IMG/VR virus record: IMGVR_UViG_3300030333_004669 | Coordinates: 1-52,674 of that record | Strand: one strand, 5' to 3' | Length of the DNA stretch: 52,674 nucleotides | Origin: a virus | Part shown: piece after piece, positions 7,462-26,854 of the stretch | How the letters are laid out: each line of letters starts with the position of its first letter | Numbering within the stretch: the stretch's first letter is position 1 | Notes under the pieces: generated by a model | Seen by the model: the letters and a program-made list of their open reading frames with translations, nothing else | The model's database searches: none | Told to the model about the DNA's origin: nothing | Made by a program: the position numbers and the translations under genes

Positions 7462-7514
7462 TGGGAAAAAAAATTCCCAGCAACAAGGTGACAAACGGAA
7501 ACCTTGTTACTGGG
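7462..7514 (-). terminator. Rho-independent terminator / attenuator after the SSB gene
   Basis: CCCAG (7476-7480) pairs with CTGGG (7510-7514) and AACAAGG (7482-7488) with CCTTGTT (7502-7508). On the minus strand the stem is followed by AA and eight T (7466-7473). An alternative short hairpin TGGGAA/TTCCCA uses the same T-run. The next ATG is only 7 bp further on, so partial read-through would set expression of 7455-5731. Confidence 0.78.
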
Positions 7515-7596
7515 AAACGAGGGGTTTCAAGGGCGGGAGGAGCTAAGAAATCCCACCGTTCGGAGCTATTACCTCCGACACCATTCCCTCGTAAAT

Positions 7597-8271
7597 TTAG
7601 AAAGGATTACCTTCTCCGCTGTCAGAAGGGGCAACCGAGTGAAGCACTCCGATGTCGCCCACCATCTTCAACTTGGCTTTGGTGGTTCCGTCTTTGGCTT
7701 CGTAGACCTCTGCTGATGGTCGCCCTTGTGCGTAAACCATTGTGTCTGCCGTAAGGGAGTCAGCCTTACCTACGTTGCGCTCTCCAAAACCTACAAAATC
7801 CCAGTAGGTCTTGAATGTTTTGTCGGCATAATCGCCGCTACCTTGTTCTTCAGTTACGATGGTTCCACCGATAAACTGCTTCCCACTTGCCTTGCCAGTG
7901 AGAACATTGATGTCACGAACTAACCTTCCTGCTATAGCTGTATTATTCATATTTATTCTAGTTTCTGCTTTTTTGATTAAAGATGCTCTGACCTTAGCAA
8001 TAGCACTTATTTCAATTTGCTGGACGCGCTGACGGGAAATACCCATATCCTCAGCCACTTGTGACTGGGTTTTTACAGTATTTAAATCGAGTAGCTCCCT
8101 CTCAGTACCACCATACTCCTTTAATAAAGTCCTTCTATTCCTTTGGTCGAGTAAACACCTCAGGCAGATTTCTACTGGTTTTTCTAACGGGGAGAAGTAA
8201 ACGCTCCTGCAAGAAACACATAGGTAGAAACAACCTCTGCCTGACGCACAATTTATTGCATAGTCACACAT
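7597..8271 (-). CDS. SSB-like protein with in-frame Cys-rich, sigma-region-4-like N-terminus
   Basis: One uninterrupted frame of 224 codons. Residues 1-50 hold seven cysteines in CxxC-type pairs (CFYLCVSC, EICLRC), likely a zinc ribbon. Residues about 64-97 (NTVKTQSQVAEDMGISRQRV) match the helix-turn-helix of sigma-70 region 4. From Met108 (ATG at 7950) the sequence MNNTAIAGRLVRDINVLTG onward reads as a single-stranded-DNA-binding OB fold and ends in a GEGNPF tip like SSB tails that recruit partners. SSB may be made from the fused start, from an internal start at 7950, or both; the region before 7950 has only a weak AGAATAA. No stop codon separates the halves. A leftward promoter candidate lies at 8325-8333 and the start codon sits in an ACATTGTG operator-like site. 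Confidence 0.75.
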   Translation of the reverse strand: MCDYAINCASGRGCFYLCVSCRSVYFSPLEKPVEICLRCLLDQRNRRTLLKEYGGTERELLDLNTVKTQSQVAEDMGISRQRVQQIEISAIAKVRASLIKKAETRINMNNTAIAGRLVRDINVLTGKASGKQFIGGTIVTEEQGSGDYADKTFKTYWDFVGFGERNVGKADSLTADTMVYAQGRPSAEVYEAKDGTTKAKLKMVGDIGVLHSVAPSDSGEGNPF

Positions 8272-8280
8272 TGTGCAACA
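8268..8280. promoter_or_regulatory. ACATTGTG site over a start codon
   Basis: ACATTGTGCAACA, matching the sites at 8791-8798 and (inverted) 1919-1926. It covers the ATG of the SSB-fusion gene, suggesting autoregulation. Confidence 0.45.
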
Positions 8281-8564
8281 CTTTTCTTAATCTTTTTTCG
8301 AGATAAATTCGATTTCCTTTGGCGGTTATAACAGCGGGTAAATTAGTAACTGACGGTTAGGTTAAATCAGGTTATCGGGTTTGTTTTTCCGTCCTTTGTC
8401 GGCAACGAGTTTTGGTTACAGCACCCCCTTGGAAATCATATTAATTTCCTTATTTTGTTAATAAGCTCCTTTCCCAATCCTTACCCCCGTTATCCCCGAG
8501 GGTAGGCTAAAACATTATTAATCCTTGGCGTTTTGCCTAGTTTTCTTGGCGTTGCAGGCTGGGA
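8272..8564. other. Intergenic control region, possible origin
   Basis: About 290 AT-rich bp without a gene. GGTTA recurs four times between 8325 and 8373, and CTTGGCGTT occurs at 8524-8532 and 8545-8553, 21 bp (two helix turns) apart, next to AT-rich runs. These are iteron-like, but no DnaA box was found, so an origin is only a possibility. Confidence 0.35.
8325..8333 (-). promoter_or_regulatory. Leftward extended -10 candidate
   Basis: On the minus strand TGTTATAAC (plus GTTATAACA), about 50 bp before the ATG at 8271. No clear -35 box. Confidence 0.4.
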
Positions 8565-8714
8565 TTATTTGGTCTGTTTTTCCTTTCTCGTATAACTGAG
8601 TCTGGCTACAGCAATCATATCCTCAAACGCCGCGTGCAACCGATGTAACGTGCAGGTTTCCCTGCTTGGATATGCCCTTTTTACGGTCTTGGGGGTCGCT
8701 AATGAGTTGATCAC
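8565..8714 (-). CDS. Possible small basic protein, 49 aa
   Basis: A frame from GTG (8714) to TAA (8565) encodes 49 residues, basic and helical (LHRLHAAFEDMIAVARLSYT, then RKEKQTK). It lies about 30 bp downstream of a leftward promoter candidate (8752-8780). No Shine-Dalgarno, and the frame stays open upstream to 8867, so the start is uncertain. I include it because its composition looks coding and it explains the promoter. Confidence 0.38.
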   Translation of the reverse strand: MINSLATPKTVKRAYPSRETCTLHRLHAAFEDMIAVARLSYTRKEKQTK

Positions 8715-8751
8715 GCTAGTGGCCCTACCAAGAAAACCTATGTGCGGGAGA

Positions 8752-8780
8752 GGTATAAATGTGTTATTGCATACTGTCAA
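8752..8780 (-). promoter_or_regulatory. Leftward sigma-70-like promoter
   Basis: On the minus strand TTGACA (8775-8780), 17-bp spacer, TATACC (8752-8757). It overlaps the rightward promoter at 8767-8795. Confidence 0.5.
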
Positions 8781-8819
8781 ACAATTTATTACATTGTGCC
8801 ACAGAGTGGTGCAGCATGT
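8767..8819 (+). promoter_or_regulatory. Rightward promoter with operator-like sequence
   Basis: TTGCAT (8767-8772), 17-bp spacer, TACATT (8790-8795) would start the rightward transcript for 8860 onward. GTCAAACAA-N6-ACATTGT (8776-8797) repeats the element at 1885-1906, and ACATTGTGCCACAGAGTG (8791-8808) closely matches the minus strand of the operator-like repeat at 1900-1926. Confidence 0.5.
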
Positions 8820-8859
8820 TGAGTTTTTTGTTGAGCACAGAGATGAGGAATGGTGGGTG

Positions 8860-9060
8860 ATGAGCAAGAGCAGATCGTTCCCGAATCCAAACCCAGTGGG
8901 GCAGAGGTTCGTGAAGATGGAGTACGGCCCGATTCTGAAGGTGGTTCATCAGACGGAGGAGGAGGCGATCAAGGAGAGGGACTGGCTGGAGGATCACATC
9001 AAGCGGTACGAAATGCGGAAGGCGAAGACCATGAGAAAGAGGCGGCGAGCCACTTCATAA
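8860..9060 (+). CDS. Hypothetical protein, 66 aa
   Basis: No family recognised. A 66-residue charged, helical protein (HQTEEEAIKERDWLEDHIKR) with a very basic C-terminus. A G-rich stretch (GAGGAATGGTGGG) before the ATG could serve for ribosome binding. The +2 frame is also open here, but its product is a Gly/Ser/Asp-rich low-complexity string typical of a shadow frame. First gene of the rightward block. Confidence 0.62.
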   Translation: MSKSRSFPNPNPVGQRFVKMEYGPILKVVHQTEEEAIKERDWLEDHIKRYEMRKAKTMRKRRRATS

Positions 9061-10802: not shown

Positions 10803-13800
10803 ATGGCAGATAAAAAAGTTTTTACTAATCTTCAGTTTGAAGGAAACGCGGAGTTAAAATTTCCAAGGGTACACCCCGATGGTTCAGCACCAGCATCCAA
10901 AGGGCCGGGGCAAGCCTACTTTGATACAGGAACAGGAGGCACACTAAACCTACAGTTCGCAGAGGCAGGGGGAACTAACGATTGGCGGGCAGTACACACC
11001 TCTGGCGTTCCGTTCAGCACCGATCAAGTGTTTACCTCCAGCTTGGCTACTGGGACTGCACCGTTCACGATTACGTCTACCACTAAAGTCGCAAACCTTA
11101 ATGTTGATAAACTGAATGGGCGTACTTGGTCTGAATCGACTACTGGTGACACTATTGTATCAAGAGATGGATTAGGCCGAATAAAAGTAACAGCACCTAG
11201 TTCCTCGGACACAAGCTCATCTTTAAATTTATACGCAGTCAATAAGGGCTACGTCGATAATGCGATTCAAGGGCTGGATCACAAATCATCTGTTCGGGTA
11301 GCCACGATAGGAGCTAACATTGACATTAGCGGAACCGCTACAGATATAGACCACGGCGATACCTTTAATGGAGTAAAATTAACAGAAGGAGATCGTGTTC
11401 TTGTTAAGGATCAAACTGTTAAAGCGGAGAACGGAATCTATGTTGTGGGGGCGGCGAATCAAGGAGTCTCAAGAGCTACTGATGCTGACACTACGGGTTC
11501 CACGGATATATCTGCTGGATCGGATGGTAGCGGTTTTACGGGGTCAGGCAGCGATGCAATATTAGGATGGTCAGCGTCTTCTGGGACACCATCTGTTTCC
11601 TCTGGGGCTTTATCATGGACGCATCCAAGCAACACAGATTGGCATTCTCTTAACACTACGTTCACGGCAGAATCGGGGAAAACGTATGTAATCAAGGCAA
11701 CATTCACGGGGAACACCACAGGGGCGTGGAATTTCAGAGCAACCGATGAAAATAGCCAGCATTCTACTGAATACGGAAATATTGGGGGAAGTTTCAATAA
11801 CGAGTCTGTTGAGTTAATCGTAACACCAAATATAAATGGTACTGTCTATGTTTATTTTAACAGTCAGGCAAGCGGGGCAGTAATTGAGTTGTCGGCGTTG
11901 TCAGTTTTAGAGACAGCTTTAACGGATGGTGCGTTTGTTTTTGTTGAAGAAGGGAATGCGTTGGCTAATACAGCTTGGGTATTGAGCGATGCTTCTCATG
12001 TTGGCGACTGTCTATGGACACAATTTTCTGGGGCTGGTCAGATTACCGCTGGAGATGGTTTAGCCAAGAATAGTGATATTTTAAGCGTTGATCTTGCCGC
12101 TGGAACACCCCTTCAGATTTCCAGCAACAAATTGTCTATGGCAGCGATTGGGGTGAATGACCTAGCCGATGACGCAGTAACCGCTGCCAAGCTGGATGAT
12201 GACGGTAACTTTACAATGGCCAAGTTAGGTCTAGGGGGTTCTCCTACGGCGACACAACTCGGTTCATCCAGTTGGCCTACCAACGCTTTAGATGTCAACG
12301 GTGCTATTCGTTTGCTTGGGGGAGGATACGCAACGTATGCGGCAAAACTAACAGCAAGATTAGACTCAGAACATTGTTTGACGTTAGAGTCACAAATTAA
12401 TGACACTACTCCGTTTGAGGTTATTGGGACGTATGCAGGAAGTGGTGGAGCAAGCCCACGGGTTGTGTTGTCAGCGAATGGCAAACCAGTAGGAATAAAT
12501 GTTACCGACCCCAGCGGAACCCTGCACGTTCAAACGGCGAGGTATGGGAGTAATCTTTTAACAGGATCAAAGGCGTTTACTACTACTAGCGGAACTGATT
12601 GGGCTGTTGAAGCAGGATGGTCTTTAAGCGGAGGAACCGCCACAAGGAATAGTAGCTCATCCGATGAAAAGTGGATTTACGTCACTTCATTAACTTCAGT
12701 TGGTAAACGCTATAAATTCTCATTTAATTTTAATAGGACTGCTGGTTCTGGTCATTTGGAGGTAGTGCAGTTTAACTCTGGCTGGATAGTAATTACAGAC
12801 AACGTGGCTAACGCTGACGGAGCAGGGTCAGTAACAGGTTATTATAACACTACAACAGGCAGTAATGGGGGTTTTTACATTCGGAACTCTGGAGAATGGC
12901 AGGGGACATTTACTGGACTGACGATAGTAGAGGACACACTAACCGCCAATGCTTCGGCTACGGAAGCTGGAGGTTTGTCGGTCAACGCTGCCGCCGATGA
13001 TCTGGTTATAGCGAACAACGATCACGGTGGTTTGTCTATTATTACTCCAGCGGATAAGAAGGGTATAATATTCTTTGGAGACAAGAACGACAATGACCGT
13101 GGTGGAATTAAATATGACCATGCCGAAAACAACAGCGAAGTAGCCACCGATGAACGTATGGAGTTTTCAGTTAACGGAGACAATAAAGCGTTAACTCTGC
13201 ACTCTGATCTGTCAGCAAAGTTTGAGGGTGGAATAGGTATAGGCACGGTAGAATCAACTGCTGGACATATTACTGCATTAGATACAACTCCATTAATCAC
13301 CGCAAAAAACAGCAACGACAATTTAGCCGAAATAGGGGCAGGATCAACGGGGGGTAAGTTTTATGCGGGAGGAGACAATGGGGCTATCTTGTTATCTACA
13401 TTTGGAACGTCATATCTTAATTCGGGTAATGTGGCTATTGGTGGGGATGCTGCTTCTGCAAAATTAGAGGTAATAACGGGCAGCAATACTGACGGCATTC
13501 AAATTCGCCGCAACAGCGCAAACGCAACGTCAACAGCATTACTCGGCTTTAGGACATCGTCTGGAGCTAACGCAACAAACACCTCTAGTATAGCGGCAGT
13601 TAGAACTAATTTACCTAACGCTGGAGACAACAAATTAGTTTTTCAAACACAAGCGTCTGGAGCGTTAGCAGAGCATTTGACCATTGACGGATACGGAACC
13701 CATGACCACAAAGCCAACCCCATCGTTAACTCCGCTACAGTCCAAGGATTGCAGGACGGGGCTTGCTACGATTTTGACGGGGAAAACACTACCCGCATAG

Positions 13801-16800
13801 CACTTCCCACGGCAGCTTATGATGCAGTTAAAGGCGACCGAATTACAGTTGCAGCATGGATTAAAAGAACATCCGATTCTGGCGAATATGACGGGATAGT
13901 GTCTGTTGATGGTTTGGTCAACCAGGCCGAAGGGTTCGCTCTTTTAATAGACGGTACAGACGATAAGCTATTTTGGCAATACGATGCTGGTAGCCAAATA
14001 GACCATAACGATTCTGGCGGCCAAGTGTTGGCACTAAATGTGTGGTATCACGTTGTTGGTATCTATGATGGGAGCAACCTCAAAACCTATGTAAATGGCG
14101 TTTTGGATCGCACACAGTCTGGTGCAGGAAAGGCTTTAAGTGGAACTAATAAGACCATTGTAATAGGCAACCAACACACAAATGCTAATAAATATTTCCG
14201 AGGCCAAATCAGAGACGTTAAAATCTTCCCCTCCGCACTTTCCGCTGGAGACATTCGCAAATTATATAGCGGCGAGAATCCGAAGAAGAATAACAATGTA
14301 GACTTGCTGGAAGGATACGGTGATGGCGAATCAGCAAGTGTTTCGCAATGGACAAACCAAAGTGGGGCTACAATTTCATCTGAAGATAACACTTTTAAAG
14401 TCACAACTACGGCAGCTTTTGTTGCGGCAAAAAGGAATGTCGCAACTACCGAAGGAAAACTTTATAAGGTTAGTGCGCTGGTCAAGGCTGGATCAGTTGG
14501 GGCTTTATTGGAAATAACTGGCACGGGTCTTTCATCTATTAACTCTGGAACCGTTACAAGTTCTTCTTTCGTTCGCAAAACCATATTCTTTACCGCTGCC
14601 TCGTCTACCTCAGTAGTTGAGCTTCAAGTGCAGACAAGCAGTAGTAGTGGAGGTACTGCTTATTTTGACGACATCACTTTTGAAGAAGTAGGAACCCTCG
14701 TAGATTTTACCCCTCAATCAGCTTCATCGTCCAAATGGAGAAACGAGGCACTACTTGGGTTTTACGATGGCACGGTAAACAACGCCACTCTGTCGCAGGG
14801 CAACTCTTATTGGAACAACATTAAGCAGGATGGGACAGCGACAACAATAGACGGATCGCTTGAGGTTCAAACTGCTTCTGGGGGTGAACTTAATTTTGAC
14901 CGAAACGGAAATAGCGGAGTTGCGATTCAGCTAAAGAACAACGGTGATATAGCCAGCGGGACACTTAAACTTGCTGGTGGTTCTGGCGTTACATTGTTCA
15001 CCAACGAAACTGAAGCACTATCTACTGCGGGTGGCGATGTAAAGGTGGCAGCCAAGCTAGGCATTGGAGACGTTGCTGACAATAACCATGATTTACGAAT
15101 ACATAACACTTCAAATTACGGTTTACTATTTTCTGGAACGAACGGGACTATTAAGTCTAACAACAATTTAGTAGTAGAGGCTACTCATAACATATATTTA
15201 CGACCCCAGACTAGTACCCAAGATTATGCTGTTCGTGTGGATACTGGTAAAGGGTTAAGAGTTACGTCTGGGACTGTAGGAATTGGAGCAGGAGCAGCAA
15301 ACCCTTCTACCGAGGGGTTGGAGATTGCTAATCCATCTGCCGATACGACTTATGATTTAAATAGCCAAGCGGATAATCTTCTGGTTATTCGGAATAGCGA
15401 TACATCAGCTAATTTGAATCGGTTTGCTGGGTTCCAAATGAAGATTAATTCCGATTCTTTAGCAGCAGAGGGAACTATACGAACCCAGTTTGCCGAAGAT
15501 GGTGGAGCGGATTTAATATTCTCAACAACAAAGAGTGGGAGTGGAGTTGACCGATTAACATTAGACAAGGACGGTGTTCACAATCACCACGGCAACCACA
15601 CAGTTAACTCCGCTACAGTTCAAGGATTGCAGGATGGGGCTTGTTACGATTTTGATGGGGCTAGTGGTTCTGTTTACACTTCATTAGCTGAGAATCCATT
15701 TAAAGGTGGTGGCACAATTTCTTTGTGGATAAATGGAAGAACGGTCGGGGAAGGCTCGTTAGGGAGGTTGTTTGACTCTGTTGGGTACGGAGTGTTATCT
15801 CACCTTGACGGTGCAAGCGGAGGGGCATACCGAGTTTATTTTTCTCAAGCTCACTCAACGGATTTAGGAGGGTGGCACAGCGGTTACGCTTTTGAGCTAA
15901 ACAAGTGGAACCATGTAGTCATCTCTTATAACAACGCATCAACTTCTAACAACCCATCAATTTGGATAAATGGTGTTTCACAGACTGTTACCGAAGCCTA
16001 CACACCAGATGGGACAGCTTCTGATTCAGCAAGTGGTCAGATATATTTAGGCGGGAATAGTGGCGATAACAGAACATGGGACGGCAGTATAAGAGACGTA
16101 AAAATCTTCCCCTCCGCATTGGAAGATGCCGATGTTCGCAAACTCTATAGCGGCGAGAACCCGAAGAAGAATCTTAATGTAAACTTAGTAACTAACGGAG
16201 ATTTTAGTTCTGCGCTGGGAACTACATGGGCGGCACGGAGAAGCGCAGTAGTCTCAATCGTCAGCGGGGAGTTAAAGGTTGTAAACGCTGGGGGTGTAGG
16301 GAGTGGTATAGCGGAACAAGCCATAACTCTTACGGGGGGTAAAACCTATAAGCTAAAAGCAGACGTAAAATCTTTTTCTGGGCTGACTCAAGCGTATATG
16401 CGGGTTTGGACTACATCTGCGACTTCGGGTGGTTCCGCTGATCTAGATAAAGTTGTAACCGCAGGAGATGACCAAGAGTTTGTTTTTACGGTTTCTGGTA
16501 GTGGTTCAGTTACTCGCTATGTGACCCTACAAGGTTATGGCGGCAGCAATGATGACTATGTAGTTTTTGATAATGTTTCCCTAACAGAAGTCGGAACCCT
16601 CGTTGATTTCACCTCTGATTCAGCAAGCACTAGCAAATGGTACAATGATGCACTACTTGGTTTTTATGATGGCACAGTAAACAACGCCACGCTTTCGCAG
16701 GGTAACTCGTACTGGAATAATATAAAACAGGACGGCGATGGTGTTGAATTTAAAAATAATATAGGTATAGGTACTGCCCCTACTACATGGAAGGCAACGA

Positions 16801-19800
16801 TAAGCGATGGCACTACTACGGGATTCATAAATGCGTACAACAACGCTCTCAGTTTCGGAACCAACACAGATCACGCTCTAAAACTTTACCAGAACGGAAC
16901 TGTTGCTTTTCAGTTGGACGCTGACGGTAATACTGAAGTTGAAAACAAGCTCGGCGTTGGGGGTGTTGCTACTTCTGCAATGACCCTTCACATGGCGGGT
17001 GGTAGTTATACTACAGATGCTACTAGCGGATTTATTATTAGTAACACAAGTTCTGGCCGTGCAACGCAAAGGATTCGTACCGTCAACGACAATGCTGCCG
17101 AGTTGTTTTTTGATGTAAACGGTGCTTCACGTTGGGATTTTTCATGCAGGAATAGTGGAAGTGATTACAAACTAAACCTATACAGCCAAGCTGGCACACC
17201 TTCATACACCGCCGTATCTGGCCCAGCAATGACATGGTTGCAAAATGGCAACGTAGGAATTGGGAACGATGACCCCAAAGCATTACTTCACCTAAAAAGT
17301 TCTGGCGGCACAACACTACGACTAGAACGCAATGACACCACAATCGTTGCTGGCGATATATTAGGTCAGATTGAATTTGAGGGGCAAGACACTAGTGATA
17401 CAGCCGCAGCGTCTGGTATTCGGGCTAAAATACTAGCGATAGCGGATGATCAGAACGGCTACGCACATAGAGGAGCGACAGGGTTATCATTTCGCACATC
17501 ATCATTAGGAGGAGGGGGTGACAATACTGACGCAACTACAGAACGGTTGCGTATCACAGATGACGGCACTCAAGACCACCACGGCAACCGCATTGTAAAC
17601 TCCGCTACGGTCGCTGGGTTGCAAGATGGGGCTTGCTATGATTTTAACGGCACTACCTCAAGCATAGACCTTGGGTCAGAGGTTATCGGTACTGGTGCGG
17701 TAACGGTTTCAGCATGGGTTAAGTCCGATGATTACGGGGAGCATGGAGGTAATGATTTTGGGAGAATAGTCGATAACGGAACTCAATATTTGTATATCGC
17801 AAGTGCAAGTTCGGGTCAAATTTTGTTTAAGCGTTCAACTGGGGGAACAGCAGCAGAAGCACCTTGGCCAACATCTAACCACGGCAAGTGGATTCATGTT
17901 GCAGCAACATCTACTGCTGCGGGTGCTATAAAGATTTATATTAACGGGGTAGACTCTACTACTACCGCTGGAGCGGGATCACCTACGGCTGGGAATACTA
18001 ACACATTTATTGGTAACAATTCTGATTCAGACAGAACATGGGACGGTAGCATAAGAGACGTTAAAATCTTTCCCTCCGAATTGGACGCTGCCGATGTTCG
18101 CAAACTGTATAGCGGCGAGAATCCGAAGAAGAATGACAATGTTGAAAAAGTTACCAACGGAGACTTTAGCACCCAACTTACCGTAACTACTAACGGGGGA
18201 AGCTCGGGTGGTTGGACTAATTATAACGCTACATCAATTTCCACTAACGGCAGCGCACAACTTGTTGTAGATGACACAACGGGTGTTGGCGGTAATAGTG
18301 CTGCCATTCAAAACTTAAACCTAACATCGGGTAAGAATTATTTAGTCAGCCTTGATTTAATTGCAGTAGGGGGAACTGGAACCACGGGCTTATACGTTAG
18401 TGCTAGGGGTTCGTCTACTAATCCTAACCCTACTGGTAATTGGCAAATCAGCGCAAATAGCACTCTTGGAACGCACCGATTTTTAGTTGAGGCGACCTCA
18501 GATTCGTATTTGTGGATATGCGCTAATGGGACTTCAACGGTAACAGTAGATAACGTCTCTGTTAAAGAAGCGGAAACCCTTGTAGACTTCACTCCGCAGT
18601 CAGCTTCGTCTTCAAAATGGAGGAACGAAGCAATACTTGGTCTTTACGATGGTACAGTCAACAACGCCACCTTGTCGCGGGGTAACTCGTATTGGAATAA
18701 TATTAAGCAGGATGGGCAAGCTGTAGAATTGTCTGACACTTTTGAGGTAACAGGGGCAAACGAAAAGATTAATTTAAAGCTGGGCGCACCTCATAGCACT
18801 ATTACTCAGCGGGGTTGGCTGAAACTGAGCAACGCTACAAATAACACTACAGTTTACACAAACGCTGGAGCTTCAAATGGTGAGTTTGGAATACATACTT
18901 TTAAGCAAAGCAAGGGCGATGGCACAGATGCACGGTCAATTCTCACTCTAGGTGAAACTAGCAATACAAATGTAAAAGTCCACGGCAAGCTCGGCGTTGG
19001 TGCTGATGCTGATGCAAATGCTGCGTTGAATGTTAATGGAGGGATGCTTGGAACATATTTCCGTATGTCTGATTACGGAGAAATCCGAGCAGATGACGCT
19101 GAGTTGTATTTTGAAAATACAGCTAATAATCGTTATTGGCGTTGGAAGTTAGCTGAAGAAGGATCAACTGATACATTTAATTTTATACTAGACCACTACA
19201 ACGGAACCTCTACATCAAATGTTTTACAATTTACACCAACTGGCAACGTAGGAATAAACAGCACAGCCCCAAAAGCACTACTTGATATTAACTCAACTGC
19301 TACTGGAACGTATCCATTGCTTATAAGGGGCGACTTGGATGGAGCAGGAAGATATACGGGCATTAAGTTTGGGCTGAATGGAACAGGAGCCACAAACAAT
19401 TATTTTAAGGCCGCAATTCAAGTGCGAGGAACGGGTGGTCATGTCCAGCCCGATATGCACTTCATGTTGCAAAGTGCCGCCTCATCAACTTCGGTAGAAG
19501 ACACAGCAAGTGACAGAGTTCTTACGCTCAGAAATGACGGCACACATGACCACAATGGCAACCGCACGGTAAACAGCCAGACGGTCAGCGACTCATGGCG
19601 ATCTTCGGAACCTTCTTTGCGGTTTGATGGGAGTAATGATGTAGTTACTGTAGGATCAACTACTAATTACGGATCAAAAGCTACTGTTGCTGTTTGGGTT
19701 AAATTTAACAAACATGATGCAGCAGATAATGGCAGAGAGGGAATAGTCGGTTCAAAATATTGGTCTGATAACGACTTCTCGTTGCACCTACATGATTCTG

Positions 19801-21341
19801 GTAGGCTAATGTTTACTAGCGGTTCTGGTGTCTATTCTAGTTGGGTTGCTGATACTGCTTATGATGTCGGAGTGTGGAATCATTTGTGTCTTGTTTATGA
19901 CTCAACGCAAAGCACTAACGCTAATAAAGCGAAGCTATATATTAACGGGGTTCTTATAACTCATTACTCAGCAGGAAATCATGCTGGCGATTTAAAAACT
20001 GATACAGGTTTAAAGATTGGTAAAACAGAGGATACGCATGATGGAGAAATCAAAGACGTTCGCATTCACAACCGTGCGATGGATGCCGATGAGGTCAAGG
20101 GGTTGTATAATGGGGAGAGTACGCCTTTTGCTTATGCTGACTCCAGCAACATATTTAACGACACGGCAGCTTCCGATAGTTCAAGTTCCTACGGCACTAA
20201 CTCCGACTCTACTGTTGCTCATGCTTCAGACCATTACACCCTTTCAAACAACACTTCATCGCATGGAGCATGGAATTACCATTCGTTTGTTTCTGGTAAA
20301 GCCTATCGCTTCTCAGTTGACATCAAAGACGGGACTGAAGCGAATGTGGAGGTGAGGTTGCAAGCGCAAGTTGCAGCAAACAGCGGTTGGGTATTAAACG
20401 ATATAACCACTACCTCATCCTTTGTAACGTACACTTTAGAGTTTACTGCTGTCGCTTCTGGTTCGCAAAACTATGGTTTGTGGCCGATGGTAGACATGAA
20501 TAACGACAACATCCAGTTTAAGAATTTTAGGCTGGATGAAATCGGAGAAGTCGCAGCTTACACGCCGAAGTCTATTGGGGGAGGTAATAGTAGAACATGG
20601 TTTGATTCCACTAGCAACAGAAACCACGGGTCTGTAACAGGAGCAACGGTGGTGAATCCAATGCGGATTGGCCCTATGGAACTGAGTGCAGACAACTTGG
20701 TCAACTTCCGATTGGACGCTGCCGACTCTGTTCCGTTGCAGTTAGAAAACAGAAACAAAACAAACGGGGATGTTACGGCAATACGTTGGAAATTTGAGGA
20801 TGGTAACTCTACTGCTGGTTACTACCCCGTTGAACTTGGTGGTGTCATTGGAACTTCAGTTGGTGATGCTGATGCTCGCAATGCCGACTTTAAGTTGTGG
20901 GTTTCCGATACTGATAATGTAAACAGATCAAACGATTGTAGACTTCACGTTACTCATGCAGGTGAGGTTAAAGCAACCTCTGCAACCAGCACCAACCTCA
21001 AGCAAGTCGCACGGGGTTTTACCACTACAATTATCCAGCCATCAGGCAAAGCATTTACAAGTTTTAGACTGAATCACGCTTTGGGAACTCAGTTTATCCA
21101 CGTTTCGGTTATTGAGTCTGGAGGTAATCAAGAGGTTGTGGAATGTGCAATTAGAATAGGTTCATGGACGGAGGGGCAAACAGGAGCAAACATTTCGTCT
21201 GCGGGTACTGGGGTGACAGGAGTAACAACTATGGGAACAGAAAACACAAACGCTGCGAACAAGGAAGAATACTGCATGGTTACTTTTGCTACCGCCCCTG
21301 CTGTTGGGACGAACTATAAAGTAGTGGTCATAGGAATTTAG
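10803..21341 (+). CDS. Giant modular tail fibre / adhesin, 3512 aa
   Basis: Longest gene of the window (about 370 kDa). The N-terminus (MADKKVFTNLQFEGNAELKF) resembles the start of the next gene and probably attaches to the virion. Residues about 153-420 contain a common fibre module (IQGLDHKSSVRVATIGANID) interrupted at residue ~236 by a beta-rich insert before its GAFVFVEEGN half. From residue ~976 four LamG/concanavalin-A-like lectin modules follow (ends marked by RDVKIFPSAL..RKLYSGENPKKN), at ~976-1165, 1599-1789, 2266-2442 and 2929-3109. After the first three comes a CBM4_9-like beta-sandwich and SSSKWRNEALLGFYDGTVNN-type linker; after the fourth a variant. Shaft repeats (GNVGIG, LGVG) lie between. 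The C-terminal ~150 residues resemble the tips of the neighbouring fibre genes. Likely role: binding host surface glycans. No enzymatic motif seen. Confidence 0.85.
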   Translation: MADKKVFTNLQFEGNAELKFPRVHPDGSAPASKGPGQAYFDTGTGGTLNLQFAEAGGTNDWRAVHTSGVPFSTDQVFTSSLATGTAPFTITSTTKVANLNVDKLNGRTWSESTTGDTIVSRDGLGRIKVTAPSSSDTSSSLNLYAVNKGYVDNAIQGLDHKSSVRVATIGANIDISGTATDIDHGDTFNGVKLTEGDRVLVKDQTVKAENGIYVVGAANQGVSRATDADTTGSTDISAGSDGSGFTGSGSDAILGWSASSGTPSVSSGALSWTHPSNTDWHSLNTTFTAESGKTYVIKATFTGNTTGAWNFRATDENSQHSTEYGNIGGSFNNESVELIVTPNINGTVYVYFNSQASGAVIELSALSVLETALTDGAFVFVEEGNALANTAWVLSDASHVGDCLWTQFSGAGQITAGDGLAKNSDILSVDLAAGTPLQISSNKLSMAAIGVNDLADDAVTAAKLDDDGNFTMAKLGLGGSPTATQLGSSSWPTNALDVNGAIRLLGGGYATYAAKLTARLDSEHCLTLESQINDTTPFEVIGTYAGSGGASPRVVLSANGKPVGINVTDPSGTLHVQTARYGSNLLTGSKAFTTTSGTDWAVEAGWSLSGGTATRNSSSSDEKWIYVTSLTSVGKRYKFSFNFNRTAGSGHLEVVQFNSGWIVITDNVANADGAGSVTGYYNTTTGSNGGFYIRNSGEWQGTFTGLTIVEDTLTANASATEAGGLSVNAAADDLVIANNDHGGLSIITPADKKGIIFFGDKNDNDRGGIKYDHAENNSEVATDERMEFSVNGDNKALTLHSDLSAKFEGGIGIGTVESTAGHITALDTTPLITAKNSNDNLAEIGAGSTGGKFYAGGDNGAILLSTFGTSYLNSGNVAIGGDAASAKLEVITGSNTDGIQIRRNSANATSTALLGFRTSSGANATNTSSIAAVRTNLPNAGDNKLVFQTQASGALAEHLTIDGYGTHDHKANPIVNSATVQGLQDGACYDFDGENTTRIALPTAAYDAVKGDRITVAAWIKRTSDSGEYDGIVSVDGLVNQAEGFALLIDGTDDKLFWQYDAGSQIDHNDSGGQVLALNVWYHVVGIYDGSNLKTYVNGVLDRTQSGAGKALSGTNKTIVIGNQHTNANKYFRGQIRDVKIFPSALSAGDIRKLYSGENPKKNNNVDLLEGYGDGESASVSQWTNQSGATISSEDNTFKVTTTAAFVAAKRNVATTEGKLYKVSALVKAGSVGALLEITGTGLSSINSGTVTSSSFVRKTIFFTAASSTSVVELQVQTSSSSGGTAYFDDITFEEVGTLVDFTPQSASSSKWRNEALLGFYDGTVNNATLSQGNSYWNNIKQDGTATTIDGSLEVQTASGGELNFDRNGNSGVAIQLKNNGDIASGTLKLAGGSGVTLFTNETEALSTAGGDVKVAAKLGIGDVADNNHDLRIHNTSNYGLLFSGTNGTIKSNNNLVVEATHNIYLRPQTSTQDYAVRVDTGKGLRVTSGTVGIGAGAANPSTEGLEIANPSADTTYDLNSQADNLLVIRNSDTSANLNRFAGFQMKINSDSLAAEGTIRTQFAEDGGADLIFSTTKSGSGVDRLTLDKDGVHNHHGNHTVNSATVQGLQDGACYDFDGASGSVYTSLAENPFKGGGTISLWINGRTVGEGSLGRLFDSVGYGVLSHLDGASGGAYRVYFSQAHSTDLGGWHSGYAFELNKWNHVVISYNNASTSNNPSIWINGVSQTVTEAYTPDGTASDSASGQIYLGGNSGDNRTWDGSIRDVKIFPSALEDADVRKLYSGENPKKNLNVNLVTNGDFSSALGTTWAARRSAVVSIVSGELKVVNAGGVGSGIAEQAITLTGGKTYKLKADVKSFSGLTQAYMRVWTTSATSGGSADLDKVVTAGDDQEFVFTVSGSGSVTRYVTLQGYGGSNDDYVVFDNVSLTEVGTLVDFTSDSASTSKWYNDALLGFYDGTVNNATLSQGNSYWNNIKQDGDGVEFKNNIGIGTAPTTWKATISDGTTTGFINAYNNALSFGTNTDHALKLYQNGTVAFQLDADGNTEVENKLGVGGVATSAMTLHMAGGSYTTDATSGFIISNTSSGRATQRIRTVNDNAAELFFDVNGASRWDFSCRNSGSDYKLNLYSQAGTPSYTAVSGPAMTWLQNGNVGIGNDDPKALLHLKSSGGTTLRLERNDTTIVAGDILGQIEFEGQDTSDTAAASGIRAKILAIADDQNGYAHRGATGLSFRTSSLGGGGDNTDATTERLRITDDGTQDHHGNRIVNSATVAGLQDGACYDFNGTTSSIDLGSEVIGTGAVTVSAWVKSDDYGEHGGNDFGRIVDNGTQYLYIASASSGQILFKRSTGGTAAEAPWPTSNHGKWIHVAATSTAAGAIKIYINGVDSTTTAGAGSPTAGNTNTFIGNNSDSDRTWDGSIRDVKIFPSELDAADVRKLYSGENPKKNDNVEKVTNGDFSTQLTVTTNGGSSGGWTNYNATSISTNGSAQLVVDDTTGVGGNSAAIQNLNLTSGKNYLVSLDLIAVGGTGTTGLYVSARGSSTNPNPTGNWQISANSTLGTHRFLVEATSDSYLWICANGTSTVTVDNVSVKEAETLVDFTPQSASSSKWRNEAILGLYDGTVNNATLSRGNSYWNNIKQDGQAVELSDTFEVTGANEKINLKLGAPHSTITQRGWLKLSNATNNTTVYTNAGASNGEFGIHTFKQSKGDGTDARSILTLGETSNTNVKVHGKLGVGADADANAALNVNGGMLGTYFRMSDYGEIRADDAELYFENTANNRYWRWKLAEEGSTDTFNFILDHYNGTSTSNVLQFTPTGNVGINSTAPKALLDINSTATGTYPLLIRGDLDGAGRYTGIKFGLNGTGATNNYFKAAIQVRGTGGHVQPDMHFMLQSAASSTSVEDTASDRVLTLRNDGTHDHNGNRTVNSQTVSDSWRSSEPSLRFDGSNDVVTVGSTTNYGSKATVAVWVKFNKHDAADNGREGIVGSKYWSDNDFSLHLHDSGRLMFTSGSGVYSSWVADTAYDVGVWNHLCLVYDSTQSTNANKAKLYINGVLITHYSAGNHAGDLKTDTGLKIGKTEDTHDGEIKDVRIHNRAMDADEVKGLYNGESTPFAYADSSNIFNDTAASDSSSSYGTNSDSTVAHASDHYTLSNNTSSHGAWNYHSFVSGKAYRFSVDIKDGTEANVEVRLQAQVAANSGWVLNDITTTSSFVTYTLEFTAVASGSQNYGLWPMVDMNNDNIQFKNFRLDEIGEVAAYTPKSIGGGNSRTWFDSTSNRNHGSVTGATVVNPMRIGPMELSADNLVNFRLDAADSVPLQLENRNKTNGDVTAIRWKFEDGNSTAGYYPVELGGVIGTSVGDADARNADFKLWVSDTDNVNRSNDCRLHVTHAGEVKATSATSTNLKQVARGFTTTIIQPSGKAFTSFRLNHALGTQFIHVSVIESGGNQEVVECAIRIGSWTEGQTGANISSAGTGVTGVTTMGTENTNAANKEEYCMVTFATAPAVGTNYKVVVIGI
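13690..20130 (+). repeat. Four super-modules (~650 codons each) within the giant fibre gene
   Basis: Unit starts at about 13690, 15565, 17555 and 19530, each opened by DHHGNR-like and NSATVQGLQDGACYDF text and followed by a LamG domain. The first three also share near-identical linkers (NSYWNNIKQDG) at 14800, 16700 and 18690. Unit length 1.9-2.0 kb. Nucleotide identity is patchy: conserved in linkers, low inside the lectin domains. Confidence 0.8.
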
Positions 21342-25381: not shown

Positions 25382-26854
25382 TTAGATTGGGACGGAAGTT
25401 AACGAAAGTCTTCCGCTTTTCGGATCGTTGGAAATTTCTAGGTCGGCTGACATCTCTCCGATCAGGGCGTAACTCAGGCTATCAAAGCTGTGCTTATTGT
25501 CATCATTGACAACGTACTGCCCAACACTCTTCCCCTTCCTTAAAAACTTCATCATATCAATCGTTCGGTGGCAGTGAGCACTAATGTGCAACCTGTTGAG
25601 CATTAGTAAATCCTTTATCAGCTTAACCCTTTGCCTGACTGATCCCGCAAACTTTGGTGCGCCAATCATGTTGATTTTCCCATCGCTGGCAGCGGCTACC
25701 ACCCTGTGATCGTATGTGTTTCCTGATGCCCTAAAGCGATTCATGGCAGACATGTCAGACCAATGCGTCCACCTAACTGGCCTTCCTATGTGACTCTCTA
25801 GCTGCTCGATCCGATCCATTGCTTCGCCTGTGAAATCCTCAAGGGATACATCTGCGTGGAGTACAACGAGCTCATCCAGTACCGCCCATCGAACACCATT
25901 CATCGTGCGAACCTTCTCCATGATGTGAAAGGCGTGGTTTCTGTCTCCTAAATCCCAGCCCCCAATTAATTCCGTGCAGTTATCGGAAGGCAATATCACC
26001 TCCCATTCATCCTCTATGGGGGAGTCTGTGTTGCCAACCACATGCAGCGGCGTCTTAAACACCTTTCCAAAATGGGAATCGGTACTACTGGCTGTCCACT
26101 TGCCCAGTACATAACGGTCATATAACTCAGGGTCTGGTCTGAATGTGGCGATCAAATCCTTCCTGTCGTGGTCAGAAAGGTAAGGATTGTCGTGAATCAT
26201 GGATTCAATGATCTGGAACTGCTCGGCGTACTCAGGGTCTGGGTGATCCTCTTGGAACGGCTCCTCGTACCAGAGCTTATAAATCCAGCTAGTCGTTCCT
26301 TCTTCTGCTGGGTTGGTATCTCCGATCCACTGATGTCTGTGGTAATCCAGCCCGGGCAAACGAAGCTGCCCCTTACTGATCGAGAACACGCATGAGTCTT
26401 TGAAGTTTGATAGCTCTGAGAAAAATATCATACTAAATCGGGTTCCCTTGATCTTCTCCTCGATGTCGTGATCTACGTCTAGCGAGTGGAGTTGGATTTC
26501 TGTTTCGCCTCCATGCATGTTGGCGACTTTCATGTAGTTCATCTTGGTCACCCCATCCACTTTGGGTTTAACCGTAATCTCAAATCCGTCCAGATTCTCC
26601 TCCCATTCTGGAATAATCAGGTCAGTCAGGTCAGACCAGACTCCAGATTTAGCGTTGCGAATAGTTTTACAGAAGACGCCAACGCGCCCTCCTTTTGTTT
26701 CCCAGCAATGGCGAACCAGCCTGTGTAGGACACCGATTGTCTTACTGGAATAACGCGGCCCAGAAACAAGCAGGTATCGTTTGGAGCAGTTGAATATTTC
26801 CAACTGTTTTGGGCTGATCGAGGGATACCATGCGCCACTAGCATCAAGAGGCAT
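25382..26854 (-). CDS. terL: Terminase large subunit
   Basis: 490 residues. Variant Walker A SGPRYSSKT at residues 31-39 and Walker B MIFFSEL near 143 power DNA translocation; the C-terminal nuclease part has GGWDLGDRNHA near residue 295 and HSFDSLSYALIGEM near the end, where acidic metal ligands of the RNase-H-like fold are expected. Length is normal for the family. It is the only late gene on the minus strand. Its ATG is 32 bp from the ATG of a divergent gene. A weak box TAAATT lies 9 bp before the ATG, with AGCACGGAT between, much like AGCACGCTT before 23714. Confidence 0.92.
   Translation of the reverse strand: MPLDASGAWYPSISPKQLEIFNCSKRYLLVSGPRYSSKTIGVLHRLVRHCWETKGGRVGVFCKTIRNAKSGVWSDLTDLIIPEWEENLDGFEITVKPKVDGVTKMNYMKVANMHGGETEIQLHSLDVDHDIEEKIKGTRFSMIFFSELSNFKDSCVFSISKGQLRLPGLDYHRHQWIGDTNPAEEGTTSWIYKLWYEEPFQEDHPDPEYAEQFQIIESMIHDNPYLSDHDRKDLIATFRPDPELYDRYVLGKWTASSTDSHFGKVFKTPLHVVGNTDSPIEDEWEVILPSDNCTELIGGWDLGDRNHAFHIMEKVRTMNGVRWAVLDELVVLHADVSLEDFTGEAMDRIEQLESHIGRPVRWTHWSDMSAMNRFRASGNTYDHRVVAAASDGKINMIGAPKFAGSVRQRVKLIKDLLMLNRLHISAHCHRTIDMMKFLRKGKSVGQYVVNDDNKHSFDSLSYALIGEMSADLEISNDPKSGRLSLTSVPI

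Follow-up and report, generated by a model that had tools for sequence, protein, structure and literature searches.

A phage should not build virions before there are genomes to pack, and a replication protein can be what switches on the late genes, as the single-stranded DNA-binding protein (SSB) of phage N4, N4SSB, and the T4 clamp illustrate. N4 cannot replicate without N4SSB, and the same protein turns on late transcription by the host polymerase through its C-terminus, the activating part, which contacts beta-prime (PMC4496689). The gene described here, a fusion known from sequence alone, may be compared with N4SSB in the way it would work, as a phage SSB with a dual role; the two differ in that the activator of N4SSB is the C-terminus, and the passages cited mention neither a region-4 nor a zinc-ribbon domain (PMC4496689). 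Sequence comparison with N4SSB was made only through tblastn of named phages. In the cited passages on T4, the co-activator gp33 clamps the flap tip helix of the polymerase and the complex has the sliding clamp as its tether, and gp33/gp55 with gp45 resemble our locus in that a module at the flap-tip place of sigma region 4 is coupled to a replication protein (PMC7892883). However, the T4 components are separate proteins that work with a clamp, whereas here a region-4 domain is fused to an SSB, and no homology is claimed. The short form of the T7 gene 4 protein arises from an in-frame internal start. The passages cited for gene 4 describe a zinc-binding domain for sequence recognition and cite a 56-kDa form (PMC9198812). 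The point of likeness is the N-terminal zinc-binding domain, putative in our fusion, to which a long and a short form would be added if the predicted internal start is used. The T7 proteins are, however, primase-helicase enzymes of another family. The principles seen in N4, T4 and T7 would be joined in a single polypeptide by our fusion.

Small phage proteins with a region-4-like helix-turn-helix (HTH), found in L058 and at L062:18124-18549, resemble the N-terminal half of the fusion, and in L058 the HTH is preceded by a CxxC...CxxC-like pattern, but no SSB is attached to them. The L062 protein is a second small region-4-like HTH protein in the same phage (G016). The C-terminal half resembles bacterial-type SSBs (PF00436/phrog_44) by profile and fold; however, the solved structures that were matched are either SSB or sigma, and none has both. 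Among the entries listed by our literature searches there was no described SSB fusion with a sigma-like, HTH or zinc-finger domain. The single domains have precedents, as do SSBs with an effect on transcription; their joining in one protein, with a likely dual start, is undescribed within the searches made.

We identified the fusion gene in a 52,674-base virus record, the whole of which is referred to as the window. It occupies positions 7597..8271 on the minus strand and encodes 224 amino acids between an ATG start and a TAA stop; the plus strand of 7597-8271 contains many stops. The predicted protein begins with a zinc ribbon (C18-x2-C21-x14-C36-x2-C39; 8155..8220, minus), followed by a sigma-70 region-4-like domain at residues 42-101 (7969..8148, minus; Pfam PF04545), whose core HTH spans residues 67-96 (7984-8073, minus). 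A linker of residues 102-107 (7951..7968, minus) leads to an SSB OB-fold domain at residues 108-205 (7657..7950, minus), recognized by Pfam, PHROGs and Foldseek, and to a disordered C-terminal tail whose last two residues, PF, form the SSB tip (7600..7632, minus). The profile searches and the conserved cysteines confirmed an architecture of zinc ribbon, sigma-70 region-4 HTH and bacterial-type SSB OB fold in one predicted ORF. The first-pass annotation had reported a 224-codon frame here, which exists with the domains as claimed and lies on the minus strand, and its reading of a -35-binding sigma-70 HTH joined to an OB-fold SSB was borne out when the halves were searched against Pfam and PHROGs. 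AlphaFold2, run on a 14-row alignment, modelled the whole fusion with a mean pLDDT of 78.7 and a pTM of 0.47, and the N-terminal half alone with a mean pLDDT of 85.2.

Seven cysteines had been noted at the N-terminus, and all are present (C2, C8, C14, C18, C21, C36 and C39), of which only C18, C21, C36 and C39 (CxxC-14-CxxC) are conserved, being invariant in all 14 distinct proteins of the family. The two CxxC knuckles fit a zinc ribbon with a putative metal site, and in the model the ribbon has two short strands on either side; Pfam gave no zinc-ribbon match in the fusion protein. Sigma70_r4 matched residues 67-96 at 31.0 bits (E 1.8e-7) when the N-terminal half was searched alone, and the whole protein at 29.5 bits, against a cut-off of 24.1. 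The family profile, compared with solved structures, matched region 4 of RpoS and RpoD over residues 42-101 or 61-95. With the N-terminal model the fold search gave weak matches (best Z 2.9), and the best of them include the sigma region-4 chains of Thermus sigmaA region 4 and mycobacterial sigL; the search of viral models with it yielded nothing at E 0.001 or better. Since region 4 occurs without region 2, the protein is not a sigma factor, and we rejected that reading, Pfam and PHROGs having found only region 4 and SSB within the 224 residues.

The region-4 homology extends over the part before the HTH, as in the RpoS match to residues 42-101, which would suit a decoy that binds the host RNA polymerase or an anti-sigma factor and weakens host transcription, with the SSB as a carrier. 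However, the recognition-helix stretch is almost invariant among the 14 distinct proteins, which suggests that a DNA target has been kept, and we regard such a decoy as highly improbable. The recognition helix presumably differs from that of sigma-70 at the contact positions, and therefore TTGACA need not be the target of the domain.

The C-terminal half is predicted to be a bacterial-type SSB OB fold that binds single-stranded DNA. In the window, the Pfam SSB model PF00436 matched residues 108-205 at 22.9 bits (E 9e-5), just below the cut-off of 26, and it exceeded the cut-off in six of the seven records having a match. PHROGs assigned the protein to the SSB family phrog_44 (E 2e-10), Foldseek matched this half to bacterial SSBs (best E 5.5e-9 against solved SSBs), and the family profile also matched solved SSBs. 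An acidic tip had been claimed for the tail; in the window the acidity is modest (SDSGEGNPF), while residues 214-224 are predicted to be disordered (pLDDT <50) and the final Phe is kept in 14/14 proteins.

We found relatives of the fusion by several routes. A protein scan of viral contigs gave one close relative, 81% identical to the window protein, and a scan with the SSB part only gave a second. In the alignment-based scan of viral contigs 131 stretches matched its patterns; 22 loci were confirmed, of which 16 have the fusion and six the HTH only. The 16 further IMG/VR contigs with the fusion include the first two relatives. In L055-L060 only a sigma-like HTH was present, within other proteins. 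A repeat of the viral scan with a wider alignment returned the same 22 loci, and in the one scan of cellular genomes 1/41 stretches was confirmed, an HTH-only locus with no SSB. When the window protein was compared by tblastn with 50,697 named phage records there was no match at E 0.01, and a distant member of the family matched mostly SSB domains in named phages and nowhere reached 80% query coverage.

In all 17 records, that is, the 16 contigs and the window, zinc ribbon, region 4 and SSB lie in one open frame, and no split form was found among relatives in the viral-contig scans. The 17 records contain 14 distinct proteins, the most distant being 45% identical to that of the window; L051 equals L050, and L053 and L054 equal L052, so these three rows were excluded from later counts. 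The linker of relatives is 0 to 6 codons longer and always in frame, and the start-codon column contains ATG, GTG or TTG, as expected of a genuine start. Values of dN/dS were 0.06-0.20 for both halves where they could be computed; nine pairs were tried, and saturation or numerical failure spoiled some, including the SSB half of the window against L002. For the pairs that yielded a value, both halves are under purifying selection, as estimated from these alignments. An assembly error that merged two genes, for which we found no evidence, is therefore rejected as vanishingly improbable, given 17/17 fused records with in-frame linker changes only and selection acting on both halves. The comparison of fused with split forms proposed in the first-pass annotation thus returned fused genes throughout, and the two circumstances it had named against a fusion, a stop codon or frameshift hidden between residues 97 and 108 and relatives that always have two genes, are both excluded, since the frame is open in the same way in 16 further contigs.

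The fusion also appears to be the only SSB of these phages that our searches detected. The Pfam SSB model was run against 12 records and matched seven, in each of which the fusion gene was the sole SSB found (7/7). The five records without a match are probably incomplete in that region, because both neighbouring genes that we tested are also absent from them. The large terminase of the window (25382-26854, minus) is weakly like those of named phages, the best being haloarchaeal tailed viruses at ~25%, and its close relatives are 31 IMG/VR records. All 31 were reached, and 29 lack the fusion gene; in the five larger of these 29 both tested neighbouring genes are absent as well, so in those five the fusion region is probably missing rather than split. 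The terminase likeness led us to consider an archaeal host, but the DnaB helicase, region 4 and the bacterial-type SSB favour bacteria.

An internal start had been proposed at 7950, from which free SSB could be made. The internal ATG (7948..7950, minus) opens a predicted free SSB of 117 amino acids and is invariant in all 14 proteins, and the residues just ahead of it vary in kind and number. In each of the 14 genes few stretches are as poor in GC as the 40 nt around this ATG, with 1.4 to 7.7% of codon positions as low. To cancel the effect of amino-acid content, synonymous codons were shuffled within each gene (300 shuffles). GC3 over the 14 codons around the ATG was 0.138, against 0.393 (sd 0.030) after shuffling, a value reached by none of the 300, and the low GC is therefore due to synonymous codon choice; the dip was individually significant (p <0.05) in 9/14 genes. 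Because the 14 genes are related and the shuffles ignore kinship, the counts cannot be treated as independent. For a control Met in the HTH there was no GC3 dip, and the tendency was the opposite. Folding energy at the internal ATG was low compared with the gene body and was not significant against synonymous shuffles (20/300); we therefore used GC3 alone as evidence. An AT-rich start lacking a motif is ordinary for this phage, since 37 of the 39 gene starts examined in the window are GC-poorer than their own gene bodies and 7/39 have a Shine-Dalgarno-like motif. In an alignment, Deinococcus SSB also has Met-Asn at its second, internal OB fold, and the Met may be kept for structure alone. Because the ATG is invariant and the low GC3 comes from synonymous choice, it is probable that the gene yields free SSB as a second product beside the full-length fusion. 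Position, conservation and codon choice thus support the proposed site as a likely second start, and the free SSB is a likely product.

The fusion gene comes first in an operon on the minus strand whose small genes are of early type and encode, among others, an AAA/MoxR-like ATPase and polynucleotide-kinase-like and metalloprotease-like proteins. In the larger relative G016, a DnaB helicase, a DUF2800 protein and an integrase are encoded in the same direction, and in the larger relative G014 a Sak4-like protein. An opposing plus-strand operon leads into the structural genes. The gene order and predicted functions show the fusion at the head of an early/replication operon, back to back with a late operon, and the early/late intergenic stretch of ~580 bp is strongly conserved among five close relatives. 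In the window, positions 10803-21341 (plus) hold one ORF of 3,512 codons with several internal repeated stretches; we guess that it is perhaps a tail fibre.

According to the passages cited, recognition of the -35 element and contact with the flap tip helix of the polymerase are both functions of sigma region 4 (PMC7892883). For this reason, TTGACA-type sites are natural candidate targets of the region-4 domain. A single copy of TGTTTGACA occurs in the window (8775..8783, minus), ~510 nt upstream of the fusion start, and the motif lies ~500 nt upstream of the fusion in 9/14 relatives. It was found once in each of three records counted whole. Upstream of L044, L045 and L049 the search did not detect it, and L043 and L048 had too little upstream sequence for the count. 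In L046 and L047, TGTTTGACA is half of a perfect TTGACA-NN-TGTCAA dyad. A scan of 7500-8900 for consensus sigma-70 promoters found none, compared with 2.1 in shuffles, and no promoter is therefore claimed.

A candidate operator, TGTTGCACA, lies directly before the start codon of the fusion (8272..8280, minus). At this place L041 and L042 have an exact second copy of TGTTTGACA, and TTG stands 6-8 nt before the start codon in 13/14 relatives and TTGC in 10/14. These observations are what would be expected of an autorepressor, in which the N-terminal domain does nothing except shut its own operon, the SSB part serves to form oligomers and free SSB from the internal start serves in replication. 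However, the element at the start codon is degenerate and is absent in L044, and we consider autorepression as the sole role to be unlikely.

Between TGTTTGACA and the fusion gene we found a conserved structured region (8457..8745, minus; nhmmer, covariation), which also lies upstream of the fusion in L002, L003, L041 and L042. It is ~290 nt long, free of ORFs and conserved as strongly as the coding part. In the consensus fold of the five sequences 13/80 pairs change on both sides, and 97% of cells are paired, compared with at most 47% when the fold is slid. The intergenic region had no match in Rfam. Positions 8457-8745 could be a leader, a separate new structured RNA or an origin.

An origin would agree with a different role for the fusion, as a tether for replication: the HTH would bind a double-stranded origin in the intergenic region and bring SSB for DNA opening and DnaB loading, with no part in transcription. 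In favour of the tether, a DnaB helicase and a Sak4-like protein are among the gene products of the family, and the intergenic region is conserved, can fold as DNA too and contains one single-copy motif per record. Against this, domains of this type are known to contact -35 DNA and the polymerase, and a transcription switch usually sits between divergent operons, as this region does. We therefore view a purely replicative tether as doubtful, while giving it some weight.

The best explanation overall, to which we give about an even chance, is a replication-linked regulator fixed to the phage's own SSB, and the fusion may thereby couple transcription to replication. Single strands would be covered by free SSB, and SSB oligomers of mixed composition would have at least one DNA-binding domain. 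Within the early/late intergenic region, the region-4 domain would attach to DNA of the -35-like (TTGACA) type, to host RNA polymerase or to both; the bound fusion would restrain its own operon, and the build-up of single-stranded DNA and SSB would favour the switch to late genes. That region-4 binding, restraint of the own operon and a replication-linked late switch all hold together is plausible, at somewhat less than even chances. A more specific and rather speculative proposal is a replication sensor consisting of one protein, in which the region-4 module on SSB recognises TTGACA-type sites both where its operon begins and between the diverging early and late operons, the ratio of full-length to free SSB and the amount of single-stranded DNA set the early-to-late switch, and the structured region between the sites is part of the same switch. 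The fusion places a DNA-recognition module and an SSB in one conserved gene that seemingly gives joined and plain forms, so that a single small protein and a pair of start-codon mutants would make the coupling of replication and transcription testable. The gene is also a marker for this group of uncultured phages.

Conserved regions of similar size also lie behind TGTTTGACA in two more distant groups (L046:4492-4850, L047:2671-3030, L050:2866-3190, L051:4515-4840 and L052:3055-3385), with apparent compensatory changes in several stems. nhmmer detected no link between these regions and the version in the window, and one common fold for all nine upstream sequences was rejected because the cross-group alignment was too poor. 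Just past the stop codon of the fusion (window 7551-7584, minus) there is a ATGGTGTC-hairpin, which is also present in L002, L003, L041, L042, L044, L049, L050 and L052, with a second copy in L038. Its stem varies and stays paired (CGGAG/CTCCG, CTAGG/CCTAG, CGCAG/CTGCG and TTGGG/CCCAA) and is followed by ACA or ACG, which suggests that a short RNA element has been conserved behind the SSB gene. In addition, positions 673-5153 of the window contain ten near-perfect palindromes of the form TTATACTT-NN-AAGTATAA, where 0.2 would be expected. Several copies lie directly before early-gene starts or over the preceding stop codon, and these palindromes are candidate operators or intercistronic hairpins.
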